NCBI RefSeq assembly: GCF_902813185.1
Contig: NZ_LR778301.1
Coordinates: forward strand, 1,860,001 to 1,924,000
Reading direction: 5' to 3'
DNA: 64,000 nt
DNA from: Denitratisoma oestradiolicum
GTDB lineage: Bacteria > Pseudomonadota > Gammaproteobacteria > Burkholderiales > Rhodocyclaceae
Shown here: piece after piece, positions 21,942 to 41,351 of the stretch
How positions within the stretch are numbered: position 1 is the stretch's first letter
Layout of the letters: each line of letters opens with the position of its first letter
Notes under the pieces: generated by a model
Database searches by the model: none
Told to the model about the DNA's origin: nothing
Seen by the model: only the letters and a program-made list of their open reading frames with translations
Translations under genes and position numbers: made by a program

Positions 21942-22017
21942 CTTGGGTGCCTCCAAAGTATTGCAGGACGGCCCCTCCCCCAAAGGGCGATGAGTCGCCC
22001 CATAGGGTGAAATGAAT
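21942..22017 (-). ncRNA. Structured leader 1 (before radC)
   Basis: One of fifteen leaders of a common plan in this window. On the minus strand CACCC is followed by an outer stem (GGGGCGAC with GTCC-type partners), an inner CCC-TTTG-GGGG hairpin, an unpaired U/A-rich link and GGAGG before the ATG. Presence before radC, ardC and ssb suggests the radC RNA motif; an Rfam covariance search is needed. Confidence 0.6.
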
Positions 22018-22026
22018 GGATTTGGA

Positions 22027-22824
22027 TTACTGCAACACGCCCGCTTCGTCAGCGGTTTTTCCCGCAGCAAGGATCTTCTGGCTTGCGCTGAAAATCCGCT
22101 GCGCCGACTTCTCCGGCAATACATCGCCATCGAGCCAGGACTGGATGTAGCCTCGCGACTCATCGCGTCCGGGCAGTTCGAGGATGGAACACAGCAGGAA
22201 GGCCACGCCCTCTGCCTCGACCTCCTGAATACTTCTCGGGATCGTCGCGGCGTCATGGCAATCGCCTTCTTCGGTATGGCCAAGCACCACATGCGCCATT
22301 TCGTGAAACCGGGTCTTGTGCGGATACTCGGCGATCGGACTCACGGCAATTCGCCGTTTGACCGCATAGCCCTGCACATTCCCATCCATGAACTCGAATG
22401 GCTCCTGCGAGATACCGAGTTCCGCCAAGGCAGCTTCGGCATTCCACTGGGGCGATTCGATGGCTTCGACGTAGTCCTCGCCTTCGGTCTGATCCAGGCT
22501 GAACCAGCGTGGTGCCAGCCTGAATAGCGTCAGCAACCGACTGTTTTCTTCCATCGATTCGTCGTCGGACTCCGGTTCACGGCGCTTGACCGTGATCGGC
22601 ATCCAGAGCGACAACGCCTTCTGGCCCTTGGTGACGGAGCGTCCCAGTTCCTTCCATCGGAGGAAACTGGCGATCGGCGCCATGGGGAGCTCGCGCTCTT
22701 GCAACTGAATGGCTGCCAGAATCTGGTTGCCGATGCTGAAGCGATGGAACCGGCCATAAGCGGCACTGACGATTCCGGGCTCCGAGAGCGCCTGCGTGAG
22801 CAGGGGTGCAAACTTGTCATGCAT
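22027..22824 (-). CDS. ardC: ArdC-like antirestriction protein (ssDNA-binding plus zincin)
   Basis: A 265-residue protein starting at 22824, five bases after GGAGG. The N-terminal ArdC domain includes GRFHRFSIGNQILAAIQL and WKELGRSVTKGQKALSLWMP; the C-terminal metallopeptidase-like domain carries FHEMAHVVLGH (HExxH) near residue 180 and a downstream glutamate in EVEAEG. ArdC-type proteins protect incoming single-stranded plasmid DNA from restriction during conjugation. It lies between a small gene and radC, and has its own leader. Confidence 0.9.
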   Translation of the reverse strand: MHDKFAPLLTQALSEPGIVSAAYGRFHRFSIGNQILAAIQLQERELPMAPIASFLRWKELGRSVTKGQKALSLWMPITVKRREPESDDESMEENSRLLTLFRLAPRWFSLDQTEGEDYVEAIESPQWNAEAALAELGISQEPFEFMDGNVQGYAVKRRIAVSPIAEYPHKTRFHEMAHVVLGHTEEGDCHDAATIPRSIQEVEAEGVAFLLCSILELPGRDESRGYIQSWLDGDVLPEKSAQRIFSASQKILAAGKTADEAGVLQ

Positions 22825-22893
22825 GATGCCTCCAAAGAAAAATGGGGAGGCACCGTCCCCGTTGGGGAGCAATGCGTTCCCCGTGGGATGAAA
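22825..22893 (-). ncRNA. Structured leader 2 (before ardC)
   Basis: Minus strand: CATCCCACGGGG, then an inner CTCCCC-AA-CGGGGA hairpin, then GGTGCCTCCCC closing the outer stem, a T-rich link and GGAGGC four bases before the ATG. Same plan as leader 1. Confidence 0.6.
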
Positions 22894-22946
22894 TTTCCGG
22901 TCGAAGCCGGATGACTGATGGAAAATCCGATGGACTTCCGGTTCTG

Positions 22947-23210
22947 CTACTTCCTTCTTGCCGACCACACCGACAGGGCAAACTCTTTGGCCTCGACTGC
23001 ATGCGGCCCAAGGAATTCGCTGGGCTTGCCTTCGATCTTGATGAAGAGTCGCCTTCCGACCACAGCAATGTGCTGACGCGCACCGCAATCGGAGTCGAAG
23101 CGCGTGCGCAGGAATTGCCGATAATCGCCTTGCCATCCTGCCGGCGGAGCAAACGCGCCCTGCCCACCCGGCATGGTGTCGATCAGACTGAAATCGATAA
23201 CGCCGTACAT
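22947..23210 (-). CDS. Hypothetical small protein between primase and ardC
   Basis: An 87-residue protein. The start at 23210 is chosen because AGGAGAG lies five bases upstream, overlapping the primase stop region; longer frames mirror the primase. It is predicted soluble, with a WQGDYRQFLRTRF stretch and a C-terminal helix ending KEFALSVWSARRK. Ten bases separate it from the primase gene, so it is co-translated with it. Family not recognised. Confidence 0.6.
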   Translation of the reverse strand: MYGVIDFSLIDTMPGGQGAFAPPAGWQGDYRQFLRTRFDSDCGARQHIAVVGRRLFIKIEGKPSEFLGPHAVEAKEFALSVWSARRK

Positions 23211-23220
23211 GACCGCTCTC

Positions 23221-24285
23221 CTAGGCGGCTTGATGCAGCGCTTGCTCCACGCTGACCAAGGCGGGAAATCCCGCTTTACCCTCAAGAACGAACACGTCCA
23301 GCCAGTCGATTCCCTTCTTGCCTTCGGGGATCTCCATGGCCGGTGCAATGGCGCCGGCACGGATACCCAGGGACCACAGCCGTTTGACCAGCTCACGCGC
23401 CGCTTCCTGCCCGTGTCCGGACGGATGTTGGCGTGAGGGCCGGTCCTTGTCGGCAAAGACCAGAATCTGGTCGATGCCGGCCGGTGGCTGGAAAGTCGCC
23501 AGCAGATGCGCGTTACCAGTAGCCCAGGCGGGAATGCCCGTGGCCTCGGTGACGGCAAGTGCCGTCTCGATCCCCTCGGTGACTGCCAGGCGATGATTCG
23601 CCGGCACCAGCCGAATGGCGCCCCCGGTCATTTGACGCGCCAAGGGATGGCGCATCAGCTTCTTGGGGGAATCGACCGGCGCCTTACGGCCCTCGGGGGT
23701 GAGATAGGTTCGGTGGATGGTGACTGCATCGCCACCTTGCCCCGTCACTTGCGCAATCAGGGTCGGGTAATCAGCAAGTCGCCGGTTGTCCTCGTAGTAT
23801 CCGAGTGCTGCATGAAACCGCAGCGTCTCAGGCACCTTGACCGACAGACCGCGACGAGCCAAATATAACCGTGCCGGCTCGGCGCTCGGATGGGACAAGG
23901 CCACAGACTCCCGCCAGGTGCGATTCAGCTGCTCCCGACGCATCTCATCCTCGGATTTATCCGCCGCCGATTTGGCACTGCGCGACCGGCTGCCGACCTG
24001 TTCAGCCACTTCGCGGATCGTCTGGCCAAAATCCCATCCATTGATCCACATCAGCAGCGCAAACCCGTTGGCAAAACTGCCGCAGGTATTGCAAATGCCT
24101 CCCCCCGTATCGGCGACATCCCGAAACAGGCGAAAGCCATCCCGACCGCCGTGAACCGGACAAGGCACATGCTTGCCTGTCCGTTCCAGTGCGGCTTTCA
24201 GCGGTGACGCGAGAGCAAGCAGAACCCGCTCCCAGCGACCTCGCGCATCTTCCTTGACTTGCTGCGTCTCGTACTCGTGCTTCAT
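23221..24285 (-). CDS. Toprim-domain primase (zinc-binding, phage P4 alpha-like N-terminus)
   Basis: A 354-residue protein starting at 24285, seven bases after GGAGGC; the ATG at 24300 overlaps that ribosome site and is unlikely. A zinc-ribbon (CPVHGGRDGF then ICNTCG, residues about 40-70) is followed by a toprim domain with the glutamate motif AVTEGIETALA (about 230) and FADKDRP (about 275). It would prime DNA synthesis, for example on the transferred strand. It lacks a helicase domain, so it relies on another protein. Leader 3 and a hairpin module precede it. Confidence 0.85.
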   Translation of the reverse strand: MKHEYETQQVKEDARGRWERVLLALASPLKAALERTGKHVPCPVHGGRDGFRLFRDVADTGGGICNTCGSFANGFALLMWINGWDFGQTIREVAEQVGSRSRSAKSAADKSEDEMRREQLNRTWRESVALSHPSAEPARLYLARRGLSVKVPETLRFHAALGYYEDNRRLADYPTLIAQVTGQGGDAVTIHRTYLTPEGRKAPVDSPKKLMRHPLARQMTGGAIRLVPANHRLAVTEGIETALAVTEATGIPAWATGNAHLLATFQPPAGIDQILVFADKDRPSRQHPSGHGQEAARELVKRLWSLGIRAGAIAPAMEIPEGKKGIDWLDVFVLEGKAGFPALVSVEQALHQAA

Positions 24286-24373
24286 TGTCGATGCCTCCAT
24301 GTAAAAACTCCGTGTGGAAATCTCCGCGCGGCATGGAGCGATCCCGTCCGGGAATAGCTCCCCGGCGGGGTTG
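24286..24373 (-). ncRNA. Structured leader 3 (before primase)
   Basis: Minus strand: CAACCCCGCC, outer stem GGGGAGC with GCTCC, inner TCCCG-GAC-GGGA hairpin, then a longer link than usual and GGAGGC. It is preceded by the hairpin module at 24374-24510. Confidence 0.6.
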
Positions 24374-24510
24374 ATGAATGCTGTTTGTTTTCTCGTGGCC
24401 AGCTACCACACGTCCGTCCAATGCCTTACGGCGTCAGACTGAATCCCATGTTCAGGCTTTGCACAGCAGGCTCGAATTGCGCATCGAACCTGTTCTGAAA
24501 AGCCCCGGCG
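24374..24510 (-). ncRNA. Leader-associated hairpin module A (upstream of leader 3)
   Basis: It contains hairpin GTGG-TAGCTGG-CCAC (24395-24409 on the minus strand) and a long hairpin GGCTTT...AAAGCC with inner CAGG/CCTG and TCGA/TCGA pairs (24455-24504). The same design recurs at 30990, 39893 and (short form) 41352 with different but matching stem bases. Confidence 0.6.
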
Positions 24511-24712
24511 CACAGAGCGTGCGCGCCGGGTAAGTGGACACAGGAGGGAGGAAACTGGATGCGATGCTACGCACCCGATCCCCCTCTCGGATTTTGAAAT
24601 GCGCCCTTTTTGGCTCGACTTCGGCTTTCCACTGAAACAGTTCCATGCAGTGCAAGACAGGTATGTCCGCCGTCACCCATTCGGGCAACAGCGGCACACC
24701 CTCACAACACCT
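24511..24712. other. Intergenic stretch with palindrome copy 5
   Basis: About 200 bp between the large methylase-helicase stop (24713) and the hairpin module. The only feature seen is the 27-bp palindrome at 24596-24622. With leader 3 and module A, the whole gap 24286-24712 is non-coding and probably carries the promoter for primase, ardC and radC. Confidence 0.5.
24596..24622. promoter_or_regulatory. 27-bp palindrome, copy 5 (upstream of primase operon)
   Basis: Left arm GAAATGCGCCC, centre TTTTT, right arm GGCTCGACTTC. It lies 311 bp before the primase start. Confidence 0.6.
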
Positions 24713-27700
24713 TCACGCGACTTCGGTTTCCGCTTCCATCGCGCCGGCATTGCCCTTGTCGAGATCGAGACTGGCATTGATCTCGCGTTGGCGCACCAGC
24801 AATTGCGTCAGTCGATCCTCCTTGTCGAAGGGCTTGGATATCTCGGCGAGGATGTCGGCCAGGCGCTTTTCTGCCCGTGCCAGATCCTCATGGACTTCCG
24901 CCAGCCTGCCTTCCAGAGCGTTGGCCACGTTTTCGATCACCCTGACCATCCCGATGGGATTGTCGGAATGATGTGCCACGTAGGCTCGCCGCTTTTTCAG
25001 CAGAAAGCTTGGTCCATCGGCTGCCGCCGTCGGTATCGACACCGCCAGATCGAAGCCGGCAAACTGCCCGACGACGATCTCCCCCGTAGAAGTCTTCCAG
25101 TTCCCGATCTTCCGGGTTCTGGCCTTGGCGTCGACGTAGTACCGAACGAGCGCATTGCCGGCTTCCGTACGATCCACATAACGCTGACCGTCGATCACCA
25201 TGCAAAAACGCTGGCCACGAACATCCACCCGATCGGCGATATCCGCTTCGATCGCCTCGATCCGTTGCCGGAGTTTCTCGATGCGACCGGGCAAGGTGGC
25301 CGACTCCCTCTGGTTGGACCATCGCTGGTTGTCCCATTGGGATTTGAGCAAGGACAGCTTGGCGACCTCGGCATCGATGCCGGCCTTTTCCATGACCAGC
25401 GGATTGCCGGACGCCAGTGCCTTCACTTCGGCATAGGACAGCGCCGCCAGCTCCACATCCTCCGCGCTACGCATCCCGGTATCCCCCCGCATCACCTGGG
25501 CGATGAAGCGTGCCTTGGTTTCGAGGGTCTGCCAGATGTAGGCGTCGAACGAGGCCTCCGTCACGTAACGGACGATACGCACCTCCTCATTCAGGTTGCC
25601 CTGACGAATGATGCGTCCCTCCCGCTGCTCGACGTCGGACGGACGCCATGGCGCATCCAGATGATGCAATGCCGCCAGGCGCGTCTGGATATTGGTGCCC
25701 ACCCCCATTTTCAGGGTGCTGCCCAACAAAACGCGAATCCGCCCTTCCCGTACGGCCTTGAACAACTCGGCCTTCGCGGTATCGCTCTCGAAGTCATGGA
25801 TGAAGGCGATCTCCGTTCCCGGAACCCCCATCTCCACGAGCTTCGCCCGTATGACGTGATAGACACTGAACCGTCCATCGTCCGTTGGCGTACTCAGATC
25901 GCAAAACACGGCCTGAGTGCCGCGGAAAGCCGTCGTATCGCGCCAGATGCCATGAATCCGCTCGGCGCACAGGCTCACTTTCCCATCCGGTGCCTCCGGC
26001 GCACAAGGAACTACCAGCCGCAGGTCCAGCGCAGCCTTGCGGCCATCGTTGGTTACCGCCAGCATGTTGTCCTCGTTGGGTGACACAGTGCCATTGCGAA
26101 TAGCTTCGGCACGTTCCACCAGCGTTGCCACAAACGCCTTCAGGGCCGCCGTGGGTTTCGCTGTCACCGTCTCCAGATGGAAACGCGGCACCGGTAGCTT
26201 CAACATGTCCGCCGTTCGAATGTCCGCCACTTCGCGGAACATCGTCATCAGCTCGGGCAGATTCACGAAGCGGGCAAACCGCGTGTTCATGCGGTATCCC
26301 CCACCATCGGGCGACAACTCCAGGGCCGTCACCGACTCGCCGAAATTGCCCGCCCAGGTATCGAACTGCGCCACATGATTCCCCCGCAGCGTCGCGGGTT
26401 GCAGATAGCGTTGCATGGTCCACATCTCCGCCATCGAGTTCGATACCGGCGTTCCTGTTGCGAACACCACCCCCGACCGGCCGCCATGCTTGTCCATCAC
26501 ATGCCGCGTCTTCACGAACATATCGAAAGCACGTTCCGAGTTGGCATTGGGCAGTCCTGCGACCCGTGCCATCTTTGTGAACCGGTAGAGGTTCTTGAAG
26601 TAGTGCGCCTCGTCGATGAACAGGAAATCGACGCCCAGTTCCTCGAACGTGAGCATGTCATCCTTCTTCGACTTCGCCGCCAGCTTCTCCAACCGCGCGA
26701 GCCAGCTCTTCTTGGCCCGCTCCAGCTCCTTGACGATCCGATTCCCCCGCTTCTGCGATTTCGAGGCCCGAATGGCACACTCGATCTCATAGACACGCGC
26801 TTCAATGAACGTGGTCATGGCCTCGTCGCTCATCTTGATCCTCTCGAAAGAGGCATGGGTAATCAGCACGCCATCCCAATCCCCAGTGGCGATTCGTGAC
26901 AACAGCGTCCGGCGTTTGTCGCCGACCAGGTCGTCCTTGCTCGCCATCAGGATGTTGGCCCCGGGATAGGCTCGTAAAAACTCCGCTGCAAACTGCTCCA
27001 GCATGTGGTTTGGCACCACATAGCACGGCTTGCTGGCCATTCCCAGACGCCTCAACTCCATACCGCCACAGATCATCGTCAGGGTTTTGCCAGCACCGAC
27101 CACATGGGCCAGCAAGGTATTCACCCCGCCCGACACGATGCGCCAGATGGCGTCCTTCTGATGCCGATGAAGGTTGAACACTTCGGAGAAGCCCGGCAGA
27201 GCTAGGCCCGACCCATCAAACTCCCGCAAGCGCACAGAATTGAATTGGTCGTTGTACAGCCTGACCAAGCGCTCACAGCGATTCGCATCGGCAAACACCC
27301 AGGCACCAAATGCTTCCTTGAGCGCCTGCTGCTTCTCACGTGCGGCAATGGTTTCCTCCGTGTTCACGAAGTACCGGTCGGTCACCGGATCGCGATCCCG
27401 AATCGTTGGCACCATCTGGTTCAGCGTCACGACAAACAACTCGCCTGCCGAGATACGTCCGGTACCGAAGGTTTGGGTCGATGCGACCGACCGTTCACCT
27501 TGCCAGGGCACATCGATGTTCCACGCCCCGGCTTCCGCACAGAACTCCACCGTGCATCCCTCGCACTCCAGCAACTGATCGAGGAATTCGGCATAGTCCC
27601 TCGCCGGTATCCAGGTCGATCCGATCCGGGCATCGATTTCTCCCGGCCCCAGATCAGCAGGCACCACCGCTTTCAAGGCATCCACATTGCGAACAAATTC

Positions 27701-29713
27701 TCCGCCCGCTGCTTCTGCCATTTCCAGCTTGCTGCGCACGTTCCCGGCCAGGTAAGCATCCGCGGTTTCCCACTGCGATGTTTCCGGATTCAGGAAGATC
27801 AGACCGCGATCCGCCATGTCCGGGAGGAACGCCGATGACGCCTGCCCAAGCAGGGATGCCATCAACGCAACATCCACACATCCGCGCTCATGCAGCGACA
27901 CCAACAGGGCCTCTTCCGGCGTATTGCAGCGGTCGACCTTGCGGACGACCCCCACGGTCCGACGGAAGAACACATCGGCCTTTTCCGCCACGCCGCCCTC
28001 CGGATCGTAATTCTCCAGAGACAACAGCAATGGCAGGTCGGGATCTCCCTTGAATGCCAGCTTGTTGGCCTTGGCATGCAGGTAACCATGCCGCGCCACA
28101 AAGCCGTCATAGGCCATGTTGAGCATCGTGCGGTAACTGCCAAGACGGCCATCGTCATCCGTGAGATGCTGGACATGCAGCAACTTCCTCGCCGCATCAC
28201 GAATCGCCATCATGCCGACGATGCGCTTGGCGGCCGTTGCCGATACCCTTCCCTCGACGACCAGCAGCTCCTGGCCTTCCGAGACAGCCAAACGGCCATC
28301 GTTGGTGAGGCAGAATGCGCCCGGCTTCACGAACTCCGGCGCTGCGACACGAATGTCGCGCTGCGGCTTGCCACTGGGCTCGGAATTTCTCGCCGCCCGG
28401 GGGTGATGAACGCCCTCTGGCAAACGCGCAATCCGTTCCCGTAAAGCAGTGCCGATATCGCCATCGAAAATGGCGGCATTCGACAAGCCATAGCCATTCG
28501 ACTTTTGTCCCATGCGCCCGATCAGCATCTCCGGGTTCTGGACATACCAGTTCGAGACATACAAACGGCGGTAGCCATCGCACATCGCATAGGGCGCTTC
28601 GACCACGCTGATCCAGTCGTCAGTGTCCTTTTCGCCTGCCCCCAACTTCTGGAGAAAAACGATATCGGTCGTGACGTCGGTATTGGCGATCTGCGAAAAA
28701 GTCCCGGACGGCAGACGGATCGCCCCCAGCAGCCTTGCCTGGGAGGCCATGTAGCGCCGCGCCCGGTCTTCCCACTTGTCGAGTGTTCCGGCCGACGTAA
28801 TGAACGCCACCAGACCACCCGGACGGGTCACTTCCAAGGCACGTCCGAAAAAGTAATCGTGAATCAGGAAATTTGCATAAGGGACATTCCGATCATCCGG
28901 CACCTGATAGTTCCCGAAGGGAACATTCGAGATCACCAGATCGAACCAGTCTTTGGGCAATCGCGCCTTCTCGAAGCCCACCGTCAAGGTACGAACCCCG
29001 TGTTGCCCATACAGGCGCGACAGTATCCGCGACGACAGACGGTCGATTTCGATGGCCGTGATTTCCGATACTTCGGCCAGTTCCTTTGGCATGGCACCGA
29101 TGAAATATCCGGTACCTGCCGAGGGATCGAGGACGCGACCACCCCGAAAACCAAGTCGGCGCACCGCTTCCCAGATCGCATCGATCACGAAGACTGCCGT
29201 GTAATGGGCATTGACCACACTCCCCTTGGCGCTCGTGTAATCCTCGCCCAACAGATCCGGCAATGACTCGGCTCTCGCCCGCCACGATGGATCGTCCTGC
29301 TCGGGATTGAACGCTTTGGGAAGCCCGCCCCATCCGGTATACCGATTGAGGATGGATCGCTCTTCGTCAGTCGGAAATCGGTTCTCGGCATCCAGCAACG
29401 ACAAAACTTCGATCGCTGCCAGGTTCGCCTCGAACTTACCGACCTCCCCACGCAAAATCGCGTGCAGAGAGCCATCCAGCGCGGGCCATACCGAGCGGAG
29501 TGGCTTGGGTGCCGGAACGTCGGCAGCCACTTCGACAACCCGTTCTGCGATGTCGCTCGACTTTCCTTCATCGATGATCAGTACCGCGTCATGTACTTGG
29601 CTGACCAAGGGAAAGGCGATGATTTCCGCCGTGCATCTTGCCTCCGGCAATGGATCGTCCGGGGCAAATCCGGGAAGCCACATCGTGACCTCCGCGAGTT
29701 TCTTGAGTTTCAT
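24713..29713 (-). CDS. Giant N6-methylase/SNF2-type helicase (DarB-like)
   Basis: A 1,666-residue protein. The start at 29713 follows GGAGACCCGT; the open frame to 29818 runs into the leader. The N-terminal third has an adenine-methylase fold with DPSAGTGYF (motif I) and SNVPFGNY, a variant of the NPPY motif. The rest is a superfamily 2 helicase with VGAGKTLT, a DEAHYFKN box and a C-terminal helicase half with LREGRIIRQGN-like spacing. Phage P1 DarB, an antirestriction protein injected with phage DNA, has the same methylase-helicase combination. Proteins like this are common on plasmids and integrative elements. Antirestriction is inferred from this likeness and from nearby ardC. Confidence 0.85.
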   Translation of the reverse strand: MKLKKLAEVTMWLPGFAPDDPLPEARCTAEIIAFPLVSQVHDAVLIIDEGKSSDIAERVVEVAADVPAPKPLRSVWPALDGSLHAILRGEVGKFEANLAAIEVLSLLDAENRFPTDEERSILNRYTGWGGLPKAFNPEQDDPSWRARAESLPDLLGEDYTSAKGSVVNAHYTAVFVIDAIWEAVRRLGFRGGRVLDPSAGTGYFIGAMPKELAEVSEITAIEIDRLSSRILSRLYGQHGVRTLTVGFEKARLPKDWFDLVISNVPFGNYQVPDDRNVPYANFLIHDYFFGRALEVTRPGGLVAFITSAGTLDKWEDRARRYMASQARLLGAIRLPSGTFSQIANTDVTTDIVFLQKLGAGEKDTDDWISVVEAPYAMCDGYRRLYVSNWYVQNPEMLIGRMGQKSNGYGLSNAAIFDGDIGTALRERIARLPEGVHHPRAARNSEPSGKPQRDIRVAAPEFVKPGAFCLTNDGRLAVSEGQELLVVEGRVSATAAKRIVGMMAIRDAARKLLHVQHLTDDDGRLGSYRTMLNMAYDGFVARHGYLHAKANKLAFKGDPDLPLLLSLENYDPEGGVAEKADVFFRRTVGVVRKVDRCNTPEEALLVSLHERGCVDVALMASLLGQASSAFLPDMADRGLIFLNPETSQWETADAYLAGNVRSKLEMAEAAGGEFVRNVDALKAVVPADLGPGEIDARIGSTWIPARDYAEFLDQLLECEGCTVEFCAEAGAWNIDVPWQGERSVASTQTFGTGRISAGELFVVTLNQMVPTIRDRDPVTDRYFVNTEETIAAREKQQALKEAFGAWVFADANRCERLVRLYNDQFNSVRLREFDGSGLALPGFSEVFNLHRHQKDAIWRIVSGGVNTLLAHVVGAGKTLTMICGGMELRRLGMASKPCYVVPNHMLEQFAAEFLRAYPGANILMASKDDLVGDKRRTLLSRIATGDWDGVLITHASFERIKMSDEAMTTFIEARVYEIECAIRASKSQKRGNRIVKELERAKKSWLARLEKLAAKSKKDDMLTFEELGVDFLFIDEAHYFKNLYRFTKMARVAGLPNANSERAFDMFVKTRHVMDKHGGRSGVVFATGTPVSNSMAEMWTMQRYLQPATLRGNHVAQFDTWAGNFGESVTALELSPDGGGYRMNTRFARFVNLPELMTMFREVADIRTADMLKLPVPRFHLETVTAKPTAALKAFVATLVERAEAIRNGTVSPNEDNMLAVTNDGRKAALDLRLVVPCAPEAPDGKVSLCAERIHGIWRDTTAFRGTQAVFCDLSTPTDDGRFSVYHVIRAKLVEMGVPGTEIAFIHDFESDTAKAELFKAVREGRIRVLLGSTLKMGVGTNIQTRLAALHHLDAPWRPSDVEQREGRIIRQGNLNEEVRIVRYVTEASFDAYIWQTLETKARFIAQVMRGDTGMRSAEDVELAALSYAEVKALASGNPLVMEKAGIDAEVAKLSLLKSQWDNQRWSNQRESATLPGRIEKLRQRIEAIEADIADRVDVRGQRFCMVIDGQRYVDRTEAGNALVRYYVDAKARTRKIGNWKTSTGEIVVGQFAGFDLAVSIPTAAADGPSFLLKKRRAYVAHHSDNPIGMVRVIENVANALEGRLAEVHEDLARAEKRLADILAEISKPFDKEDRLTQLLVRQREINASLDLDKGNAGAMEAETEVA

Positions 29714-29783
29714 ACGGGTCTCCTGAAAAGCCGGAGACACGCTCCCCCTCCGGGGGGTGTCCCCGGATGGGTTGAGAAACATT
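29714..29783 (-). ncRNA. Structured leader 4 (before methylase-helicase)
   Basis: Minus strand: CAACCCAT, outer stem CCGGGGACAC with GTGTCTCCGG (nine to ten pairs), inner CCCCC-GGAG-GGGG hairpin, then GGAGACCCGT before the ATG. It is the clearest example of the nested structure. Confidence 0.7.
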
Positions 29784-29845
29784 GGTGGATCGGATGCCGA
29801 AGGCGCGAGCCCTGACAACCGACCGGGTGATGCAAAGACGACTGC

Positions 29846-30421: not shown

Positions 30422-30487
30422 GTGATGCCTCCAGAATTGAATGCCGGAGACACCTATCCCTTCCGGGCGATGTCCCCGGACGGGTGA
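30422..30487 (-). ncRNA. Structured leader 5 (before the 191-residue protein)
   Basis: Minus strand: outer stem CCGGGGACAT with GTGTCTCCGG, inner GCCC-GGAA-GGGAT hairpin, then TGGAGGCATCAC and ATG. Its outer stem is nearly the same as in leader 4 while the inner stem differs. Confidence 0.65.
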
Positions 30488-30508
30488 TGGCCGTGAGGCC
30501 GAATGGAT

Positions 30509-30868: not shown

Positions 30869-30924
30869 GACCATCCCCTTGCCACGCGAATCGCTTCGCG
30901 CAGCATTCGTACATCGTGCTTCAT
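30865..30924 (-). CDS. 19-residue short ORF directly after leader 6
   Basis: ATG at 30924 follows GGAGGCACC; the peptide reads MKHDVRMLREAIRVARGWS and stops within the start codon of the next gene. The leader's ribosome site belongs to this ORF rather than to the 119-residue gene, so the short ORF either couples translation or is a microprotein. It is an amphipathic basic helix. Confidence 0.5.
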   Translation of the reverse strand: MKHDVRMLREAIRVARGWS

Positions 30925-30989
30925 GGTGCCTCCAGTAAATAATCGGGAGGCAGCGACCCTGTCGGGAGCAAGCCCCCACAGGGTTGAGA
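30925..30989 (-). ncRNA. Structured leader 6 (before the short ORF)
   Basis: Minus strand: CAACCCTGT, outer GGGGGC with GCCTCCC, inner CTCCC-GACA-GGG hairpin, A/T-rich link and GGAGGCACC. It is preceded by hairpin module B (30990-31110). Confidence 0.6.
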
Positions 30990-31110
30990 AATGCTGTTTG
31001 TTTGGCGCGGCCAGCTACCGCTTTTCAGTCGTTCCCATATGGGAACGGCCAAACTCGGGTTTTCCACAGCGGGCTACGGAAATGCACAACCCGTTCTGGA
31101 AAACCCGGCA
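30990..31110 (-). ncRNA. Leader-associated hairpin module B (upstream of leader 6)
   Basis: Three hairpins on the minus strand: GCGG-TAGCTGG-CCGC (31007-31021); a perfect 18-bp palindrome CGTTCCCATATGGGAACG (31030-31047); and a long hairpin with GGGTTTTCCA and TGGAAAACCC arms (31057-31106). It begins 40 bp after the thiF stop. Confidence 0.65.
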
Positions 31111-31149
31111 CACGCAAACGCGCATGCACCGGGAAAATGGCTCCCACCC

Positions 31150-33318: not shown

Positions 33319-33387
33319 CGCGACCTCCTTGTTGAAATGGCGCAGGCGTGTCGAGCCCGGCGGGCAGGACATCACCCGCACCGGGTT
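33319..33387 (-). ncRNA. Structured leader 7 (before PRTRC B)
   Basis: Minus strand: TAACCCGGT, inner GCCCG-CC-GGGC hairpin, flanked by GATGTC and GACAC pairing, then AAGGAGG before the ATG. It sits between genes of the same operon. Confidence 0.5.
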
Positions 33388-33395
33388 AATGGAAC

Positions 33396-34582: not shown

Positions 34583-34585
34583 GAC

Positions 34586-34972: not shown

Positions 34973-34982
34973 GACCGCCTCC

Positions 34983-35402: not shown

Positions 35403-35477
35403 GGTGGTACCTCCAAAGAGAAAATGGCAGGCGCACCACGCCCCTTGCGGGGAACGTGGTCCCCGCTTGGGTGGAAA
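35403..35477 (-). ncRNA. Structured leader 8 (before PRTRC E)
   Basis: Minus strand: CACCCAAGC, stem CCACG with CGTGG around an inner CCCC-GCAA-GGGG hairpin, then a T-rich link and GGAGGTACCACC before the ATG. Confidence 0.6.
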
Positions 35478-35486
35478 GAAATTGTC

Positions 35487-37166
35487 TTACGCGATGTTGA
35501 AACGCATCGACCGCGGCACCTTGCCCTCATAAGGGAAGGCCGCCACGTTCAACAGCGCCTTGACGATGTCGTCCTTCTTGCCGCTCATGGCCTTGGCAAA
35601 TGCCCCGCCCATCGCTGCCTTCAAGCCGATCTCGTCGCACATCGCCTCGATTTCGCTCTTGGTGAGCAGCTTGAGAAACTCTTCACAGAGCTTCCAGTGC
35701 CGCCCGAGATCGATCTCGAGATAGTTGAGGAGCTGGACCAGGGTCTTTTCCTCAATGCCGTCCGCAGCGGATGCCGCCAGTCCCAGAAACAGCTTGTCCC
35801 GAACAGACTCATCCGACTGCGCAACCAGGCGTGCTGCCTCATCCGTCTTGAACACGAAGCTGGTGAACTCCTGCTTGGTGATCGCGGCGAATGCCTTGCC
35901 CAGCTTGGTATCGCTGATATGCCGGGCATTTCCCGATAACGCCAGAGCGATGAGTACCGTGAGATTGTTGTCACGGTTGGCCATCAACTCCCGACGCAGC
36001 GCCTTGCGCCAGACTTCCAGCCGGTAGTCCTTGACCCGTTGCGAGTCCTGGACCTTGGCCTCCGACTTGGCTTCGGCCTTGCCGGATGACTTGGCAGGAG
36101 TTGCCGACTTGCCTGACGCTGTCTTCGCAGAACCTTCCGCCGGCGTTGCCTTGTCCTTTTCCAGCTTGATGCGCGCTGCCACCTTCTTGGCATTGCAGCT
36201 CGCATCGAAGCACAGGTCGGGATAGACATTGCCCAACTTGCCCGGCACAGCCGAGATCGCGGCACCGAAGTTCTTGCAGGCGCGGCAGGCTTTCGCCTGT
36301 TCGCCGCCCACCCCGGTATCGCCCTCCGCCAGCAGTCGCAGGAGCGTGAAGTTCTCGCCGGGTCGGACGATCCGAATGGTCGGATAGTCGTCGGCCAGTG
36401 ATGCCTTCTTCACGTCAAGTGACGCCTCGGTCTTGCCATCGAAACACGCCCCGTGGGTGCAGTGTCCGGCGGCAATCGCCTCGCCAAACAGTGCCTGCTG
36501 GTTCCCCGAGTTGTGGGGACACGACGTGCACTCGTCCTTGTCGAAGATGGCGCTGCTCAACGCCCGTGAGATCTGCTCAAGTTGCCCGCGAAACTGGGCG
36601 ACCGTTGGCAGACTGGACTGTGACAGCAACTTCTCCAACACAGCATCCTGCTTGTCGCGGGTGACCGCAGCCAACAGCTCTGCGTGACCCAGCTGGATGC
36701 GCCGCTCGGACAAGGCCCGACGGACCCGTTCCGAACAGTTCATCAGCGCCAGGCGCTTGTCGAGCGTGGTTCGCGACCATCCCAGACGACGCGAGGCCTC
36801 GTCCCGATCCCCCTGACAGCGACCAAGAATCTTGGCTGCCGCTTCGGCTTCTTCGGTCGGACTCATGTCGGCACGCTGAATGTTCTCGATCAGCGCCGCC
36901 TCGTCGGCTTCGCCATCGTCCAGATCGCGCACCAGTGCCGGGATTTCATACTCGTCCCCGAACACCTTCTTTGCTGCACGCCAGCGACGCTCGCCGGCGA
37001 CGATCTCGTAACGCCCCGCATCGCGGGGGCGAACGAGGATCGCCTGCAGTACGCCCTTGGATTTCACAGAATCTTCCAACGCCGTCATTTCCGAGGGATC
37101 GAAGTAGCCTCGGGGATTGCGGCCGGGAAGGATGTTCCCGACCTTGATTGATGCTTGCAGTTGCAT
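35487..37166 (-). CDS. parB: PRTRC system ParB-family protein
   Basis: A 559-residue protein starting at 37166 with GGAGGC four bases upstream. It has the ParB/Srx domain (VRPRDAGRYEIVAGERRWRAAK near residues 45-65), ENIQRADMSPTEEA, and a helix-turn-helix RRLGWSRTTLDKRLALM. A long cysteine-rich centre follows (CTSCPHNS, CTHGACF, CRACKNF, CFDASC), probably zinc-binding, then a Lys/Ala linker and a helical C-terminal domain. ParB CTPase motifs (GERRxR) look intact. It would bind centromere sites; the six 27-bp palindromes are one candidate set. Confidence 0.9.
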   Translation of the reverse strand: MQLQASIKVGNILPGRNPRGYFDPSEMTALEDSVKSKGVLQAILVRPRDAGRYEIVAGERRWRAAKKVFGDEYEIPALVRDLDDGEADEAALIENIQRADMSPTEEAEAAAKILGRCQGDRDEASRRLGWSRTTLDKRLALMNCSERVRRALSERRIQLGHAELLAAVTRDKQDAVLEKLLSQSSLPTVAQFRGQLEQISRALSSAIFDKDECTSCPHNSGNQQALFGEAIAAGHCTHGACFDGKTEASLDVKKASLADDYPTIRIVRPGENFTLLRLLAEGDTGVGGEQAKACRACKNFGAAISAVPGKLGNVYPDLCFDASCNAKKVAARIKLEKDKATPAEGSAKTASGKSATPAKSSGKAEAKSEAKVQDSQRVKDYRLEVWRKALRRELMANRDNNLTVLIALALSGNARHISDTKLGKAFAAITKQEFTSFVFKTDEAARLVAQSDESVRDKLFLGLAASAADGIEEKTLVQLLNYLEIDLGRHWKLCEEFLKLLTKSEIEAMCDEIGLKAAMGGAFAKAMSGKKDDIVKALLNVAAFPYEGKVPRSMRFNIA

Positions 37167-37237
37167 GATGCCTCCAATGAAAAAAGGCAGGCAGCCGCAT
37201 CCCCGGACGGGAATGCGACTGTCCCGCCAGGGGTGAA
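37167..37237 (-). ncRNA. Structured leader 9 (before parB)
   Basis: Minus strand: CACCCCT, outer GGCGGGACAG with CTGCCTGCC, inner GCATTCCC-GTC-GGGGATGC hairpin, TTTTTTCA link and GGAGGCATC before the ATG. Confidence 0.65.
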
Positions 37238-37245
37238 ATAAATCG

Positions 37246-37566
37246 TCAATGAGTGTGTCGCCGCCGGTAACGTTCCAGCACCCGATCCCGAATTTCTTCG
37301 TCATCGAGGCCAAACAGACGACAACACGCCCGGTAGGTAAAAGCACCGGACTCCGAACGTGGCGCCCGCATCCAATCGAGAATGTCTGCCCGCGTTTTGG
37401 CGGACACCCTCAGATCGAACAGGTCGTGCAGCGATTTCTCCAGAAGCAGACCATGCAGCCGCAGGATGTCATCCTCGGTCCATGGGATCTCGTCATCGAA
37501 GTTCGCTTCACGTCCTGCCATGCGAGCTGGATCGGGTCGATGGTCCTGACCGCTTTCCTTGTGCAT
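37246..37566 (-). CDS. Hypothetical protein upstream of parB
   Basis: A 106-residue protein. The start at 37566 has GGAG six bases upstream; ATGs at 37587 and 37572 are alternatives. It is helical and acidic-basic (EDDILRLHGLLLEKSLHDLFDLR, then YRACCRLFGLDDEEIRDRVLERY), with no membrane segment. It ends with a His/Arg tail. Family not recognised. It lies between the 70-residue gene and parB without a leader, so it is probably read through from upstream. Confidence 0.55.
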   Translation of the reverse strand: MHKESGQDHRPDPARMAGREANFDDEIPWTEDDILRLHGLLLEKSLHDLFDLRVSAKTRADILDWMRAPRSESGAFTYRACCRLFGLDDEEIRDRVLERYRRRHTH

Positions 37567-37601
37567 GGCCATCTCCGTCATCAGCACGTGAATTGCCTGT
37601 G

Positions 37602-37814
37602 CTAGTGATGGTCGCCGGCCTTGACCAGGCGGTAGCTGTCGTACTCCAACTGATAGCCGTTGCCCTGAATCACGCTCAGAAGTTCGTTGCGCGCCAGTAC
37701 CACAGCGGCATCGTCTTCCTTGTTCAGGGTCAGAAATCCGACCTTGTCGAGCACTTGCACCGCCCGCGCACAGATCCGGATGGCTCCGAACTCCGTGTCA
37801 CCGAGCATGGTCAT
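37602..37814 (-). CDS. Hypothetical 70-residue protein downstream of recT
   Basis: The start overlaps the recT stop (ATGA at 37811-37814), so translation is coupled. The protein is small, helical then beta (CARAVQVLDKVGFLTLNKEDDAAVVLARNEL). It contains no known motif. Co-translation with recT suggests a recombination-related helper, which is only inference. Confidence 0.6.
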   Translation of the reverse strand: MTMLGDTEFGAIRICARAVQVLDKVGFLTLNKEDDAAVVLARNELLSVIQGNGYQLEYDSYRLVKAGDHH

Positions 37815-38908
37815 TTGCCATCCTCCCCGAAAATGTCATTCGCCGAGGAAGACGGATTGGCCAGTGCAGACTTGCGGCTACGGTAGGCGCGCAGCACCTG
37901 TTCCAGCTCGGGGCCCTCGAACGAACCTTCGGCCCGGACATAGACTTCATCCAGTTCGTCGGTCGTGGCCGCCCTGCCGATAATGGCCAGAGTGTCCTGC
38001 AGCAGCTTGCCGGAGGCTTGAGGCTCCGCAACTTTAGGCGACCCGGCCTTGTCAGACTTGCTTTCCTTGTCACCGGACTCGGTCGTGGGTTGAATGATCT
38101 CCCCCGTTTCCTCATCGATGATTGGCGCCCAGGAACCTTCGATGGCTTCGGTGATGCCGATGTTCTGGTTTTCACCACGCTCGGTCACTTCATCGAGCGC
38201 CAGCGCCATCGCCAGTTCGGGCGACTTCGGCAACAAGTTGCACAGCCGGCGAATCACGGTCTTGAGGCCCATCGGGACGAAATGCGTATCCCACGGACTT
38301 TCCTTGCCGTACTTCTTGGCCATCTGGTAGCCCCGCGAGTTGTCGCGCACCTGTTCGATCTGTTCCTTCGACAGGGCGTGAAACGTGCGAGTGCCGTCCT
38401 TGAACACCGCGACGGCATAGAAGCCCACGATCACACCGCGCTCCTCGTCGGAGGCAGGGAATCCGTTCTTCTTCAACGGTTCGTGCATCAGGGTCCGGTT
38501 AAGGCCCAGGACGATGTCGAACTTGTCGTTGATGCGAACTTCGTGACCGTAGATGTCCTGCACGATGCCGCTGTTGCGGGCCAGCTTCATGAGCCCCTGA
38601 TAGCCGGGGATCAACTGGCACTGATTGCCAAAGGGCACCAGGTGCGCTTCGCCCATCAGGCCGACTTCGAGCCCGAGCTGGCTGGACTGGATCACCGCCG
38701 CAAAGACGCTGCGGGGATCGGTCTGGGCCAGTTTCGGGTTCATGCGGAACGCGGTCAGAGCGATGCGCACCATGCGATCTGGACTCAAGTGCTTGGGCAG
38801 TGCGCGGGCAATTTCGCCTTTGAACTGCTCCAGCATGGCCGGGAAAGGCACCACGTTGGACTGAACGCCTTGGCGGGACTTCTGGATGTTGCGTAGGGTT
38901 TGAGACAT
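37811..38908 (-). CDS. recT: RecT-family single-strand annealing protein
   Basis: A 365-residue protein starting at 38908, seven bases after GGAG. The RecT core covers residues about 25-240 with FRMNPKLAQTDPRSVFAAVIQSSQLGLEVGLMGEAHLVPF and GYQGLMKLARNSG. It anneals complementary DNA strands and normally works with an exonuclease (next gene upstream) and SSB. The C-terminal 100 residues are a charged linker and a helical end. Leader 10 precedes it. Such recombination pairs also occur on SXT and IncC elements (bet/exo). Confidence 0.92.
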   Translation of the reverse strand: MSQTLRNIQKSRQGVQSNVVPFPAMLEQFKGEIARALPKHLSPDRMVRIALTAFRMNPKLAQTDPRSVFAAVIQSSQLGLEVGLMGEAHLVPFGNQCQLIPGYQGLMKLARNSGIVQDIYGHEVRINDKFDIVLGLNRTLMHEPLKKNGFPASDEERGVIVGFYAVAVFKDGTRTFHALSKEQIEQVRDNSRGYQMAKKYGKESPWDTHFVPMGLKTVIRRLCNLLPKSPELAMALALDEVTERGENQNIGITEAIEGSWAPIIDEETGEIIQPTTESGDKESKSDKAGSPKVAEPQASGKLLQDTLAIIGRAATTDELDEVYVRAEGSFEGPELEQVLRAYRSRKSALANPSSSANDIFGEDGK

Positions 38909-38981
38909 GGTTTTCTCCAAAGAAGAATGGCGAAGACACCTGTCTCCCATGACGGGGATGGGTATCCCCGCCGGGGTTGAT
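38909..38981 (-). ncRNA. Structured leader 10 (before recT)
   Basis: Minus strand: CAACCCC, outer GGCGGGGATACC with GGTGTCTTCGCC, inner CATCCC-CGTCAT-GGGAG hairpin, then TTTGGAGAAAAC and ATG. Confidence 0.65.
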
Positions 38982-39003
38982 GACCTACAAAAGTTGCCGC
39001 GGT

Positions 39004-39826
39004 TTAGGCGGCGTCCAGCTCGAAGGCTTCTGTGTTGGCAGCCCAGCGTGGCAGGGAGATCAGTTCAATCTCGCCACCCGGTTGGTACGCCGGCCAGTTG
39101 CCCGATGCCTGGCACCACTTCAAGAGCTGAAGTGCCGCCCGGTATTTCTTGCGCCCGATCTCGATCACATCGGGATCGGCGCGATAAACAGCTACCGCGT
39201 GCGGCGCGTCCTTCTCCACAGCGACAAACAGGAACGGAAGTTCCATTCCAGTCACGGCCGACGTAGTACGCCGTCTGGATGTCGTAGCCGAAGTTCGCAA
39301 TGGATTTGGAGAAGCCGCTACTGCTGGCATCGACGCAGGTCTTGAGATCAACGATGGCATCACCGTTGAACCAGTCCGGCCGACACTTGCAGTTGAGGCC
39401 CGTGTCCGCATCCGTCCAGAACGCCGAGAGCTCGGCGTCACCAACGGACAGAAGTTGTGCCGCCCCTTGATGGGCAAACACGGCACGCTGCACCAGGGTG
39501 AGCGTGGACATCTCCTCGGAAGTAATCACGATCTTGCCCTGATTGGCTTCCTCGAAGCGTGCTGCGGCTTCCTTGCCTTCCTTCGTGCGACGGTCGAATT
39601 TCTCCGCCACCACGAATTCCTCGGCAAAGCGATCCTGCTCCAGTACATAGGTATGCACTGCCGTACCGAATGCCATGGCGGGCGTCGGTTGATGCGGATG
39701 ATCCAGATACTCGCGCAGGTGGGCCGGGCTTTTGAGCATCTTGACGATACCCGAATGGCCGATGGCTTTCTCCGCGTGATACTGCGTGGCCGGCATGACG
39801 AGCAGGCCGGGATGATTGAGTTTCAT
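39004..39826 (-). pseudogene. YqaJ/RecE-type exonuclease, frameshifted
   Basis: The first 200 residues from the ATG at 39826 form a PD-(D/E)XK exonuclease: AFGTAVHTYVLE, CKCRPDWFN, IVDLKTCVDASS (the D..K catalytic region) and YDIQTAYYVGRDWNG. Near 39243 the homology moves to the frame that reads LPFLFVAVEKDAPHAVAVYRAD and runs to 39004. Skipping one base near the GGAACTTCC at that point restores a single protein of about 273 residues. It is a sequencing error, an inactivating insertion or a +1 frameshift; I see no classical slippery site. It would degrade one strand for RecT to anneal. Confidence 0.75.
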
Positions 39827-39892
39827 GATGCCTCCAGAGTGAATGCCGGAAGCACCGACCCGAACCGGGGCGTTGTCCCCGGCTGGGTTGGA
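39827..39892 (-). ncRNA. Structured leader 11 (before exonuclease)
   Basis: Minus strand: CAACCCA, outer GCCGGGGACA with GTGCTTCCGGC, inner CCCGG-TT-CGGGT hairpin, then TGGAGGCATC and ATG. Hairpin module C lies upstream. Confidence 0.65.
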
Positions 39893-40010
39893 AAATGCTG
39901 TTTGTTTCGCGCGGCCAGCTACCGCTTTTCAACCGAACGGATAACCGTCCGATCAAATCTGGCTTTCCGCAGGACGCTCGGGGCGAACGCCCTCGGGAAA
40001 GCCCCGGAAG
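39893..40010 (-). ncRNA. Leader-associated hairpin module C (upstream of leader 11)
   Basis: Minus strand: GCGG-TAGCTGG-CCGC (39911-39925); CGGACGG-TTAT-CCGTTCG (39934-39951); and a long hairpin with GGCTTTCC and GGAAAGCC arms (39961-40003). The order and spacing match module B although the second and third stems have other bases. Confidence 0.65.
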
Positions 40011-40025
40011 TCCGGGGCGATGGGA

Positions 40026-40187
40026 TCATTCGATGGTTCCGGCTTTGCGCGCCATGTCGAGTGCCTTCAGCAACATGTCACGGGTTTCCATGTCCCGCTT
40101 GCCTTCCCTCAGCCGTTGATAGAGATCACAGGCAAAGGCCATGGGCAGCGGGTCGAACAGTCGAACGAGATAGGGATTGAGTTTCAT
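40026..40187 (-). CDS. 53-residue hypothetical protein with its own leader
   Basis: The start at 40187 follows CTGGAGAAAATC. The peptide is helical (LVRLFDPLPMAFACDLYQRL, then ETRDMLLKALDMARKAG). The open frame to 40259 runs through the leader. Family not recognised. The start MKLN is shared with the exonuclease gene next to it, which also reads MKLNHPG, hinting that the leaders and first codons were duplicated together. Confidence 0.55.
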   Translation of the reverse strand: MKLNPYLVRLFDPLPMAFACDLYQRLREGKRDMETRDMLLKALDMARKAGTIE

Positions 40188-40318
40188 GATTTTCTCCAGA
40201 GGTTGTTGAGATTCCCTGGCGAAAACCGCATCCAATATGGAGCGATCCCCGCAGGACAAAGGGCTCTTCGAGAAAAGCGCTTTGTGCTGCGGGGAAGCCC
40301 CCCACAGGCAATACTGCG
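40188..40318 (-). ncRNA. Structured leader 12 with extended inner stem
   Basis: Same plan but longer: the inner hairpin has CCCCGCAG and CTGCGGGG arms continuing as ACAAAG and CTTTGT, inside an outer GGGGGGCTTC / GATCGCTCC stem, then TGGAGAAAATC and ATG. Confidence 0.55.
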
Positions 40319-40320
40319 AA

Positions 40321-40398
40321 CTACAGACCGAGCGCGCGAACGATCGGACGGCTGATGATCCAGCCAGAAATGCAGCATGCGAGAAGAACGAGTTCCAT
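40321..40398 (-). CDS. 25-residue hydrophobic peptide with its own leader
   Basis: ATG at 40398 follows AGGAGGCATCTC. The peptide reads MELVLLACCISGWIISRP with IVRALGL to the stop at 40321. It is one short membrane segment with two cysteines. Its strong ribosome site and complete leader 13 argue for expression. Function unknown; small-membrane-protein or toxin-like roles are possible. It is too short for usual gene calling. Confidence 0.55.
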   Translation of the reverse strand: MELVLLACCISGWIISRPIVRALGL

Positions 40399-40468
40399 GA
40401 GATGCCTCCTGAGGTAAAAAAGGGGGCACCCCTCCCCTAGCGGAGGCGATGCCCCCGCTGGGGTTGAA
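40399..40468 (-). ncRNA. Structured leader 13 (before the 25-residue peptide)
   Basis: Minus strand: CAACCCCAGC, outer GGGGGCA with TGCCCCC (perfect), inner CCTCC-GCTA-GGGGAGG hairpin, TTTTTTACCTC link, AGGAGGCATCTC and ATG. Confidence 0.7.
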
Positions 40469-40471
40469 ACT

Positions 40472-40744
40472 TCAGGCAATGACTTCGAAGGAAGCCTTTG
40501 CCGTGTTGCCGGAATCGTTGCCGATTCCGTTCCGACGCAGATACGCCGGTACGTCGTACTGCCGCCAATCCGTTACCGGTTCCTCGGCGGGTAATTCATC
40601 TACTTCAGCCACCACCTCCTCGACCTTGGCCTGGAGCGGAACTCGCAGGAAAGAACCACGAATGGCTTCCAGCGCAAACTGAAGAAACGAAAGGATCAGA
40701 TGCAGTCCTGCCAGCATGGCCAGGACGAGAATGACGCGCTCCAT
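40472..40744 (-). CDS. 90-residue hypothetical membrane-anchored protein
   Basis: The start at 40744 lies eight bases after GGAGG. One N-terminal membrane segment (residues about 3-25, ILVLAMLAGLHLILSFLQF) is followed by an acidic tail (EEVVAEVDELPAEEP) and RQYDVPAYLRRNG. It is the gene directly after ssb. Family not recognised. Confidence 0.65.
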   Translation of the reverse strand: MERVILVLAMLAGLHLILSFLQFALEAIRGSFLRVPLQAKVEEVVAEVDELPAEEPVTDWRQYDVPAYLRRNGIGNDSGNTAKASFEVIA

Positions 40745-40812
40745 GAACAAACCTCCAAAAGTGATGGAGGCCTGTCCCCCAAGGGAGGAAGACCTCCCGG
40801 TGGGGAAACTAG
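40745..40812 (-). ncRNA. Structured leader 14 (before the 90-residue protein)
   Basis: Minus strand: outer GGGAGGTC with GGCCTCC, inner CCTCCC-TT-GGGGGA hairpin, CACTTTT link, GGAGGTTTGTTC and ATG. Confidence 0.6.
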
Positions 40813-40823
40813 AAACGTGCGAC

Positions 40824-41276
40824 TCAGAACGGCTCGATGTCGGGTACATCCTCGAATGCTGGTCCCGAAGCGGCTGCAGGCTTGCCTTTACCGTTGCCGG
40901 TACGCTTGCCTTTGCCTGCGTCGGGCGCATCGTCATCCGCAGGACGAGTGCCGAGCATCTTCATCTCGCTGGCGAGAATTTCGACGACATAGCGATCCTG
41001 ACCCTCTTTGTCCTGCCATTTGCGGGTCTGGATGCGACCTTCGACGAAGACGGGCGAGCCCTTTTTCAGGTACTCGCCGACGACCTCTGCCGTGCGACCA
41101 AAAAAAACGACACGGTGCCATTCGGTGATTTCCTTCTTTTCACCGGACGACTTGTCCTTGTACGTCTCCGTCGTTGCGATCCGAATCGTTGCGATCGCTT
41201 CGCGGTTCTGCGTGTAACGAACCTCAGGGGCGGCACCCAAGTTGCCGATGAGGGTGACTCTGTTTAGTGATGCCAT
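40824..41276 (-). CDS. ssb: Single-stranded DNA-binding protein
   Basis: A 150-residue SSB. The OB-fold (residues 1-110) has the usual opening [20 protein letters not shown] and [31 protein letters not shown] glycine/lysine-rich linker leads to DIEPF, close to the canonical DDDIPF tail that recruits other replication and repair proteins. It is the first gene of the minus-strand DNA-handling block. It has leader 15 and would protect the transferred single strand and help RecT. Confidence 0.95.
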
Positions 41277-41351
41277 GACTACCTCCTGACAAAAGTTGAA
41301 ATTGGCAGGAAGGCCGTCATTACCTGACGGGGTATCCCCGCCGGGGTTAGT
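41277..41351 (-). ncRNA. Structured leader 15 (before ssb)
   Basis: Minus strand: AACCCC, outer GGCGGGGATAC with a CCTTCCTGCC partner, inner CCGTCA-GGTAA-TGACGG hairpin, AACTTTTGT link, AGGAGGTAGTC and ATG. Short module D precedes it. Confidence 0.6.

Follow-up and report, generated by a model that had tools for sequence, protein, structure and literature searches.

In Denitratisoma oestradiolicum, DNA-handling and PRTRC genes of a conjugative element, taken to be integrated (an ICE), are preceded by structured RNA leaders, each of which is probably a cis-acting translational switch on its mRNA. The leaders lie in a window of 64,000 nucleotides (nt) of contig NZ_LR778301.1 (positions 1,860,001 to 1,924,000; the window is the whole stretch analyzed). 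An initial annotation had proposed fifteen leaders of one family here; the coordinates it listed are the start codons of minus-strand genes, and the leaders themselves occupy the ∼60–90 nt upstream. Fourteen of the fifteen are one RNA family, on which the consensus structure, shuffled alignments, coevolution, and two covariance models agree, and the fifteenth, at 40188, is divergent. Within the family, three helices (B:C, B:E, and E:F, lettered as below) each coevolve, their strands overlap, and E:F spans the Shine-Dalgarno sequence.

From 5′ to 3′ the segments of a leader are A (ACCC), B (GCGGGGAYACC-like), C (CCCCGC-like), D (GGG), E (GGUGUCUCC-like), a pyrimidine-rich link, and F (GGAGGCAUC-like, which includes the Shine-Dalgarno sequence). 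RNAalifold, applied to a plain MAFFT alignment of the 14 leaders, gives a consensus of two helices, the G/C hairpin and one that takes in the Shine-Dalgarno sequence. In this alignment paired cells reach 90.1% (81.4% in shuffles), the covariation score is 0.306 (0.156 in shuffles), and 18 cells carry two-sided changes (8.4 in shuffles), with 0 of 500 shuffles as high in each case. The number of pairs with two-sided change, five, was equaled by 166 of the 500 shuffles, so there is no excess by that measure. The view of the initial annotation that structure is kept over sequence is supported. The outer stem and inner G/C hairpin it drew are real as well, as one of two competing folds; the pairing of the Shine-Dalgarno sequence had been missed.

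Wider sets of leaders were collected with two covariance models: R1, built from the 14 window leaders, and R2, a wider model whose training includes some leaders first found with R1. Over 46 sources, mostly loci around PRTRC ParB genes, R1 gave 178 matches at E ≤ 0.1 in 40 of the 46, training sequences included; the sources without a match were L003, L011, L014, L043, L049, and L050. The best 150 of these matches form set A2, in which a Shine-Dalgarno-like word and ATG come after 137 rows, and GTG after 7 more. All A2 rows but one (149/150) share the strand of the other leaders at their locus, and the remaining row is opposite. Set A3 holds 125 R2 matches at E ≤ 0.05 from 21 further loci, 118 of which are directly followed by ATG, GTG, or TTG and an open frame of at least 20 amino acids (aa). 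Rows without a start codon were left out (2 of 150 in A2 for the coevolution test; 7 of 125 in A3, one of them, L091:16268-16327, after a radC RNA), as were two antisense mirror hits among the 118 A3 rows with a start codon. Neither R1 nor R2 matches site 40188. There, and at three orthologous sites, the long B:E stem is present and the B:C hairpin is absent; this divergent leader, 40188–40264, is predicted to be mostly open. A match of the Rfam family ceN40 across 40188, on the plus strand (E = 1.7), was taken as chance.

Coevolution was assessed free of any alignment by comparing the pairing of a strand with the partner from its own leader to its pairing with partners from other leaders. Among the 14 window leaders, with segments cut by hand and so open to bias, z was −6.6 for B:E, −5.9 for B:C, and −3.4 for E:F; neither A:D (p = 0.055) nor C:D (p = 0.14) was significant. 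Relatedness inflates such z-scores, and in the wider sets representatives were kept below 68% identity by a gap-tolerant measure. The first of these sets, with windows cut by rule, comprised 25 representatives, spanning 18 loci and selected among 148 of the 150 A2 rows, and gave B:C −8.1, B:E −8.7, and E:F −8.7, each at p = 5e-5 (the floor), along with A:D −1.8, C:D −0.1, and values between −1.8 and +2.4 for pairings outside the model. With nine representatives below 60% identity, the three helices still scored −4.6, −6.0, and −4.4, respectively. In other elements (35 representatives from 17 loci) the values were B:C −7.9, B:E −11.0, and E:F −8.7. Because 82 of the 116 leaders in this second set had a relative at ≥68% in the first, we repeated the test without them; the 19 representatives left, from 12 loci, gave B:C −6.6, B:E −7.9, and E:F −5.3, each at p = 5e-5. 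B:E is the least biased of the three helices, since the models that found A2 and A3 contain B:C and E:F and not B:E.

The helices compete for the same bases. B:C uses 7.0 bases of B, of which a mean of 6.2 are common to B:E; E:F uses 9.1 bases of E, with a mean of 7.1 in common; and the stretch in conflict, B1:E2, shows coevolution even when taken alone (z = −8.0). Since strands are shared, B:C, B:E, and E:F cannot all form fully together. Pair counts on A3, from an alignment fitted to B:C and E:F with 122 distinct sequences, show two-sided change in 4/4 E:F and 6/7 B:C pairs, with 0 of 500 shuffles as high in all five measures. The E:F columns 80/146, for example, hold U-A in 48, C-G in 37, and a gap in 27 of the 122 sequences, and columns 83/144 are unpaired in 38. 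The coevolution, the strand overlap, and the pair counts together therefore show that selection maintains two folds, either a single B-to-E hairpin with the Shine-Dalgarno sequence free, or two hairpins of which the second buries it. On this evolutionary evidence, mutually exclusive folds that reach the ribosome-binding site, a feature of riboswitch-type control, are found.

In the switch that we propose, the closed fold has B:C (with A:D) as one hairpin and E paired with F, which would hide the Shine-Dalgarno sequence; in the open fold B would pair with E, possibly with C:D inside, and leave F accessible to the ribosome. Nascent RNA could go through the open fold before F emerges. The closed fold would then be the default end state, the open one being adopted transiently on new RNA or when something favors B:E, and upstream modules (a radC RNA or a GGUAGCUGGCC hairpin, see below) may bias the choice in a subset of leaders. 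Control at the RNA level, which the initial annotation expected, is likely; we infer that translation is what the leaders control. Energies computed for 236 leaders (an earlier folding set had 126) place the closed fold lower by a median of 8.2 kcal/mol, and in 11% the open fold is the lower one. As long as F has not yet been transcribed, the median difference favors B:E by 1.9 kcal/mol, and B:E is the lower fold in 62% of leaders. Three of the 14 window leaders, 37166, 33319, and, by a small margin, 38909, have B:E as the lower fold. An RNA thermometer is unlikely because the predicted E:F duplex averages about −13 kcal/mol.

Several observations weigh against such a switch. The energies take no account of pseudoknots or tertiary contacts, and the open fold is unfavored even before F in 38% of the 236 leaders. 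Barriers along the direct path are large, with medians of 22 kcal/mol (B:C to B:E, F not yet made) and 18 kcal/mol (open to closed), so that fold exchange would require a kinetic route or a helper. Control pairings were not all null: B:D reached z = −4.2 in the second set and −3.9 in the stricter one, and C:E −2.9 and −1.2. We tentatively read the B:D signal as the B:C helix extending beyond its fixed window. Covariation does not support A:D and C:D, which hardly vary. Finally, at least five U in the eight nt after the B:E hairpin occur in 26 of 82 representatives, and some leaders could terminate transcription instead.

Conservation was profiled in the 82 representatives over the first 14 nt at the 5′ end and over the Shine-Dalgarno segment; outside the paired strands, a UCAA-like, G-poor 5′ flank is moderately conserved, and conservation is otherwise slight in the parts profiled. 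The transfer system in the window is F/SXT-type, and in other elements leader-bearing plasmids are typed MPF_G and MPF_F. Because little is conserved outside the paired strands and the transfer systems differ among elements, we favor a host factor or folding kinetics over a small-molecule aptamer within the leader. T4 gp32 and ribosomal proteins are known trans-acting binders of leaders, and an element- or host-encoded protein or small RNA might likewise bind these and set a regulon-wide state. That one element has 14 copies, often in front of DNA-handling genes, speaks for such a binder, as does the kept 5′ flank. That flank is just moderately conserved, however, and the diversity of transfer systems makes a single element-encoded binding protein less likely; we regard a trans-acting binder as somewhat unlikely overall. 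A little less probable still is an intrinsic timer, in which a fresh transcript would be open (B:E), be translated briefly, and relax to the closed fold, giving a limited burst of protein per transcript with no ligand. The preference for B:E before the Shine-Dalgarno sequence emerges (62%) and for the closed fold afterward (89%) speaks for a timer, as does the slight conservation outside the paired strands, yet the barriers of ∼18–22 kcal/mol are perhaps too high, or would make it reliant on a pseudoknot toehold. The fuller version, a portable ligand-free RNA timer set before many separately started genes of conjugative elements, by which new transcripts are translated briefly and then shut themselves, with the radC RNA and the GGUAGCUGGCC hairpin as interchangeable retuning modules, we hold to be doubtful.

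Translational coupling or insulation, whereby translation of a gene depends on, or is shielded from, ribosomes finishing the preceding gene, could explain why the gap between an upstream stop (frames of ≥70 codons) and ACCC peaks at 15–19 nt (32/184; 10–24 nt in 63/184), and why the PRTRC A and ThiF genes, which overlap the preceding gene, have no leader match. These distances are from the A2 and A3 loci, with related leaders not thinned and frames not verified as genes; compact operons alone would give such placement, and 72 of 275 rows have no upstream frame in the stretch searched. We hold coupling to be improbable. A transcription attenuator, with B:E and the U-rich link as terminator and B:C as antiterminator, fits those leaders (37166 and 40400 among them) in which U-runs follow the GC-rich B:E hairpin, and the seven of 14 window leaders with at least five U of eight. 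The minority share of such U-tracts among the 82 representatives and the count of terminator-like sites in the region, 18 vs 16.7 in shuffles and so without excess, rule out a terminator as the general reading, although it could hold for a subset; coevolution of E:F through the Shine-Dalgarno sequence would also be left unexplained, and we judge attenuation quite improbable. That the structures act as single-stranded DNA during transfer, an idea raised for the STAXI motif (PMC2864571), would suit stem-loops in a mobile element. E:F pairs and coevolves with the Shine-Dalgarno sequence and nearly all A2 leaders share a strand within their loci, both of which speak against a role as DNA, and we consider it very unlikely.

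The initial annotation took the leaders to be probable relatives of the radC RNA motif, the presumed 5′ untranslated region of radC, antirestriction, integrase, and methylase genes. The gene context agrees, in that radC, ArdC-N-like, and N6-methylase/helicase-like genes lie behind window leaders. The RNA itself is different: radC RNA is a more conserved RNA of 149 positions, and its model (RF01754) has no match in the window at gathering score, in 20000–43500 at E ≤ 10, or in the whole genome (150 of 434 candidates scored), so the model scores rule out that the window leaders are radC RNA. The search of Rfam 15 more broadly came back without any family at gathering score at a window leader. 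The kinship is one of position. We added five of eight plasmid records resembling radC RNA (Pseudomonas veronii, Tistrella, Enterobacter, Rhizobium, and Stutzerimonas), and in other elements a leader-model match stands on the same strand behind each of the 13 distinct radC RNAs examined, at a gap of −39 to +27 nt, with a start codon after the leader in 12 of the 13. The weakest of these matches have E of about 0.02, and in the first genome it was R1 that detected them, some being taken into R2 afterward. Six loci that hold radC RNA carry 25 leaders, 13 of them with no radC RNA in front. Because a leader match stands behind each of the 13 radC RNAs, radC RNA seems to be an optional module placed upstream, and the leader its expression platform. 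Within the class, radC RNA was present in 1 of 274 genomes (10 candidates scored per genome), and there R1 matched immediately behind its copies. In 2010 it was listed as certainly an RNA, probably cis-regulatory, and of ambiguous riboswitch status, in a table that is its sole appearance in the main text (PMC2864571).

STAXI (RF01728) likewise occurs near ssb, antirestriction, and integrase genes and forms pseudoknots (PMC2864571). It is a small pseudoknot in two or three tandem repeats, whereas the leader is single per gene, and in 20000–43500 at E ≤ 10 its model gave a chance-level match alone (E = 5.4), elsewhere and on the plus strand; model scores thus rule out that the leaders are STAXI. 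A Spi-1 match over a leader (29683–29831; E = 4.4, 20.7 bits against a cutoff of 40) was taken as chance. The leaders resemble the expression platforms of translational riboswitches, in which mutually exclusive hairpins combine anti-Shine-Dalgarno and anti-anti-Shine-Dalgarno strands, and differ from riboswitches in showing no conserved ligand-binding core in the parts profiled and in occurring in many copies per element. Other structured leaders, such as the autogenous leader of the DNA-binding gene 32 of T4 and the kinetic leaders of the MS2 maturation gene and hok, which delay inhibitory folding, are single-gene devices, and the family described here serves many genes. No paper that we found describes it, the additional files of PMC2864571 and a 2017 survey of 224 motifs lying outside that coverage.

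Beyond the window, the R1 search of the whole genome at E ≤ 1 gave 28 matches, the 14 window leaders and 14 new ones (E from 1.4e-10 to 7.6e-4) in a second cluster at 2.064–2.084 Mb of the same contig (G000:C1:2064643-2083932), and no match outside the two clusters (150 of 2432 first-look candidates scored). The fifteen copies on one replicon of the initial annotation are therefore better described as a conjugative element inside a 4.17-Mb contig that carries a further cluster of 14. R2 at E ≤ 1e-4 puts leaders in 25 or more of the 369 class genomes sampled, the present one included, and in 24 of 272 genera; 12 of the other 24 genomes have 3–8 matches. As 13 candidates were scored per genome, these are lower bounds. 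PRTRC-bearing plasmid stretches of Aromatoleum (L011) and Rhizorhabdus (L014) had no leader match at E ≤ 1, and a Xanthomonas PRTRC stretch had weak matches only. The radC RNA query found nothing in phage records, on which the leader model itself was not run. Among 59 downstream proteins chosen from 118, we found RadC (6), SNF2 (3), DNA methylase (2), and AAA_5 (2), with single matches to RecT, ArdC-N, Antirestrict, and several DUFs. An ICE gene has distant matches in 64 genomes, of which one, Escherichia coli A31, was examined; it has a leader of 38.3 bits and a weak match (E = 0.15), with no Rfam match at the locus. The leader (L100:14432-14496, plus strand) starts just past the stop (14426) of a STY4534-family gene of its ICE.

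A hairpin module, GGUAGCUGGCC followed by AAAYAAACAGCAUU, stands 28–29 nt before four of the window leaders. Its stems are compensated (GCGG/CCGC, GUGG/CCAC, and GAAGG/CCUUC) and it bears a AAAYAAACAGCA tail; the loop GCUG could pair with CAGC of the tail. Over the loci then sampled, 29 of 34 occurrences of the module pattern lie 27–38 nt before a leader, and the pattern was not found in viral contigs.

The leader-bearing region has conjugation genes and is taken to be an integrated conjugative element because the window sits in the 4.17-Mb contig. At lower coordinates than the leaders lie genes for TraC and an SXT-type TraD, both above curated cutoffs, and for TraH-, TraB-, and PRTRC D-like proteins, with scores below cutoffs. 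Each gene with a leader in the window has a single copy of it in front (Table 1). The product of the RecE-like gene matches the exodeoxyribonuclease VIII model at E = 4.3e-29, under the cutoff of that model. Two short open reading frames (ORFs) behind full leaders, of 25 aa at 40398 (MELVLLACCISGW...) and 19 aa at 30924 (...LREAIRVARGWS), are conserved in other elements. The PRTRC A and ThiF genes (32581–31150, minus strand), as listed, overlap the preceding gene; with these among some leaderless genes examined, it is as if leaders mark separately started genes.

Table 1. Leaders and upstream hairpin modules in the window (window positions; bits are R2 scores)
Feature	Position	Strand	Evidence
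Leader before ssb (41276–40824)	41277..41354	−	43.4 bits; SSB families
Leader before 90-aa gene (40744–40472), no family match	40747..40813	−	30.8 bits
Leader before conserved 25-aa ORF (start 40398)	40400..40471	−	61.0 bits
Divergent leader before 53-aa ORF (40187–40026)	40188..40264	−	Unmatched by R1/R2; B:E stem, no B:C hairpin
Leader before RecE-like exonuclease gene (39826–39065)	39826..39895	−	65.1 bits
Leader before RecT recombinase gene (38908–37811)	38909..38984	−	62.9 bits
Leader before PRTRC ParB gene (37166–35487)	37166..37240	−	59.7 bits
Leader before PRTRC E gene (35402–34983)	35405..35479	−	68.5 bits
Leader before PRTRC B gene (33318–32581)	33319..33393	−	40.0 bits
Leader before conserved 19-aa ORF (start 30924)	30924..30991	−	53.3 bits
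Leader before 191-aa gene (30421–29846)	30423..30492	−	52.5 bits
Segments A, B, C, D of the 30423..30492 leader	30482–30485, 30469–30481, 30462–30468, 30457–30461	−	Hand cut
Segments E, link, F (Shine-Dalgarno region) of the 30423..30492 leader	30444–30456, 30435–30443, 30422–30434	−	Hand cut
Leader before 1666-aa helicase/N6-methylase-like gene (29713–24713)	29714..29779	−	64.3 bits
Leader before primase-like gene (Zn ribbon and Toprim; 24285–23221)	24289..24378	−	37.3 bits
Leader before ArdC-N-like gene (22824–22027)	22824..22896	−	55.2 bits
Leader before radC (21941–21342)	21945..22015	−	42.6 bits
Upstream hairpin module	41355..41386	−	
Upstream hairpin module	39896..39927	−	
Upstream hairpin module	30992..31023	−	
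Upstream hairpin module	24379..24411	−	

These findings add a probable cis-regulatory RNA family of mobile elements, at whose leaders, in the loci scanned, Rfam 15 has no match at cutoff other than the adjoining radC RNA. They also bear on the ambiguous riboswitch status of radC RNA, the model of which apparently ends just short of the likely expression platform. The E. coli A31 leader is a possible laboratory test bed. Were the timer true, fresh transcription of the element would yield a pulse of SSB, RecT, ParB, antirestriction, and similar proteins. If the leaders are switches as proposed, these elements would control their maintenance genes leader by leader, at the level of translation.

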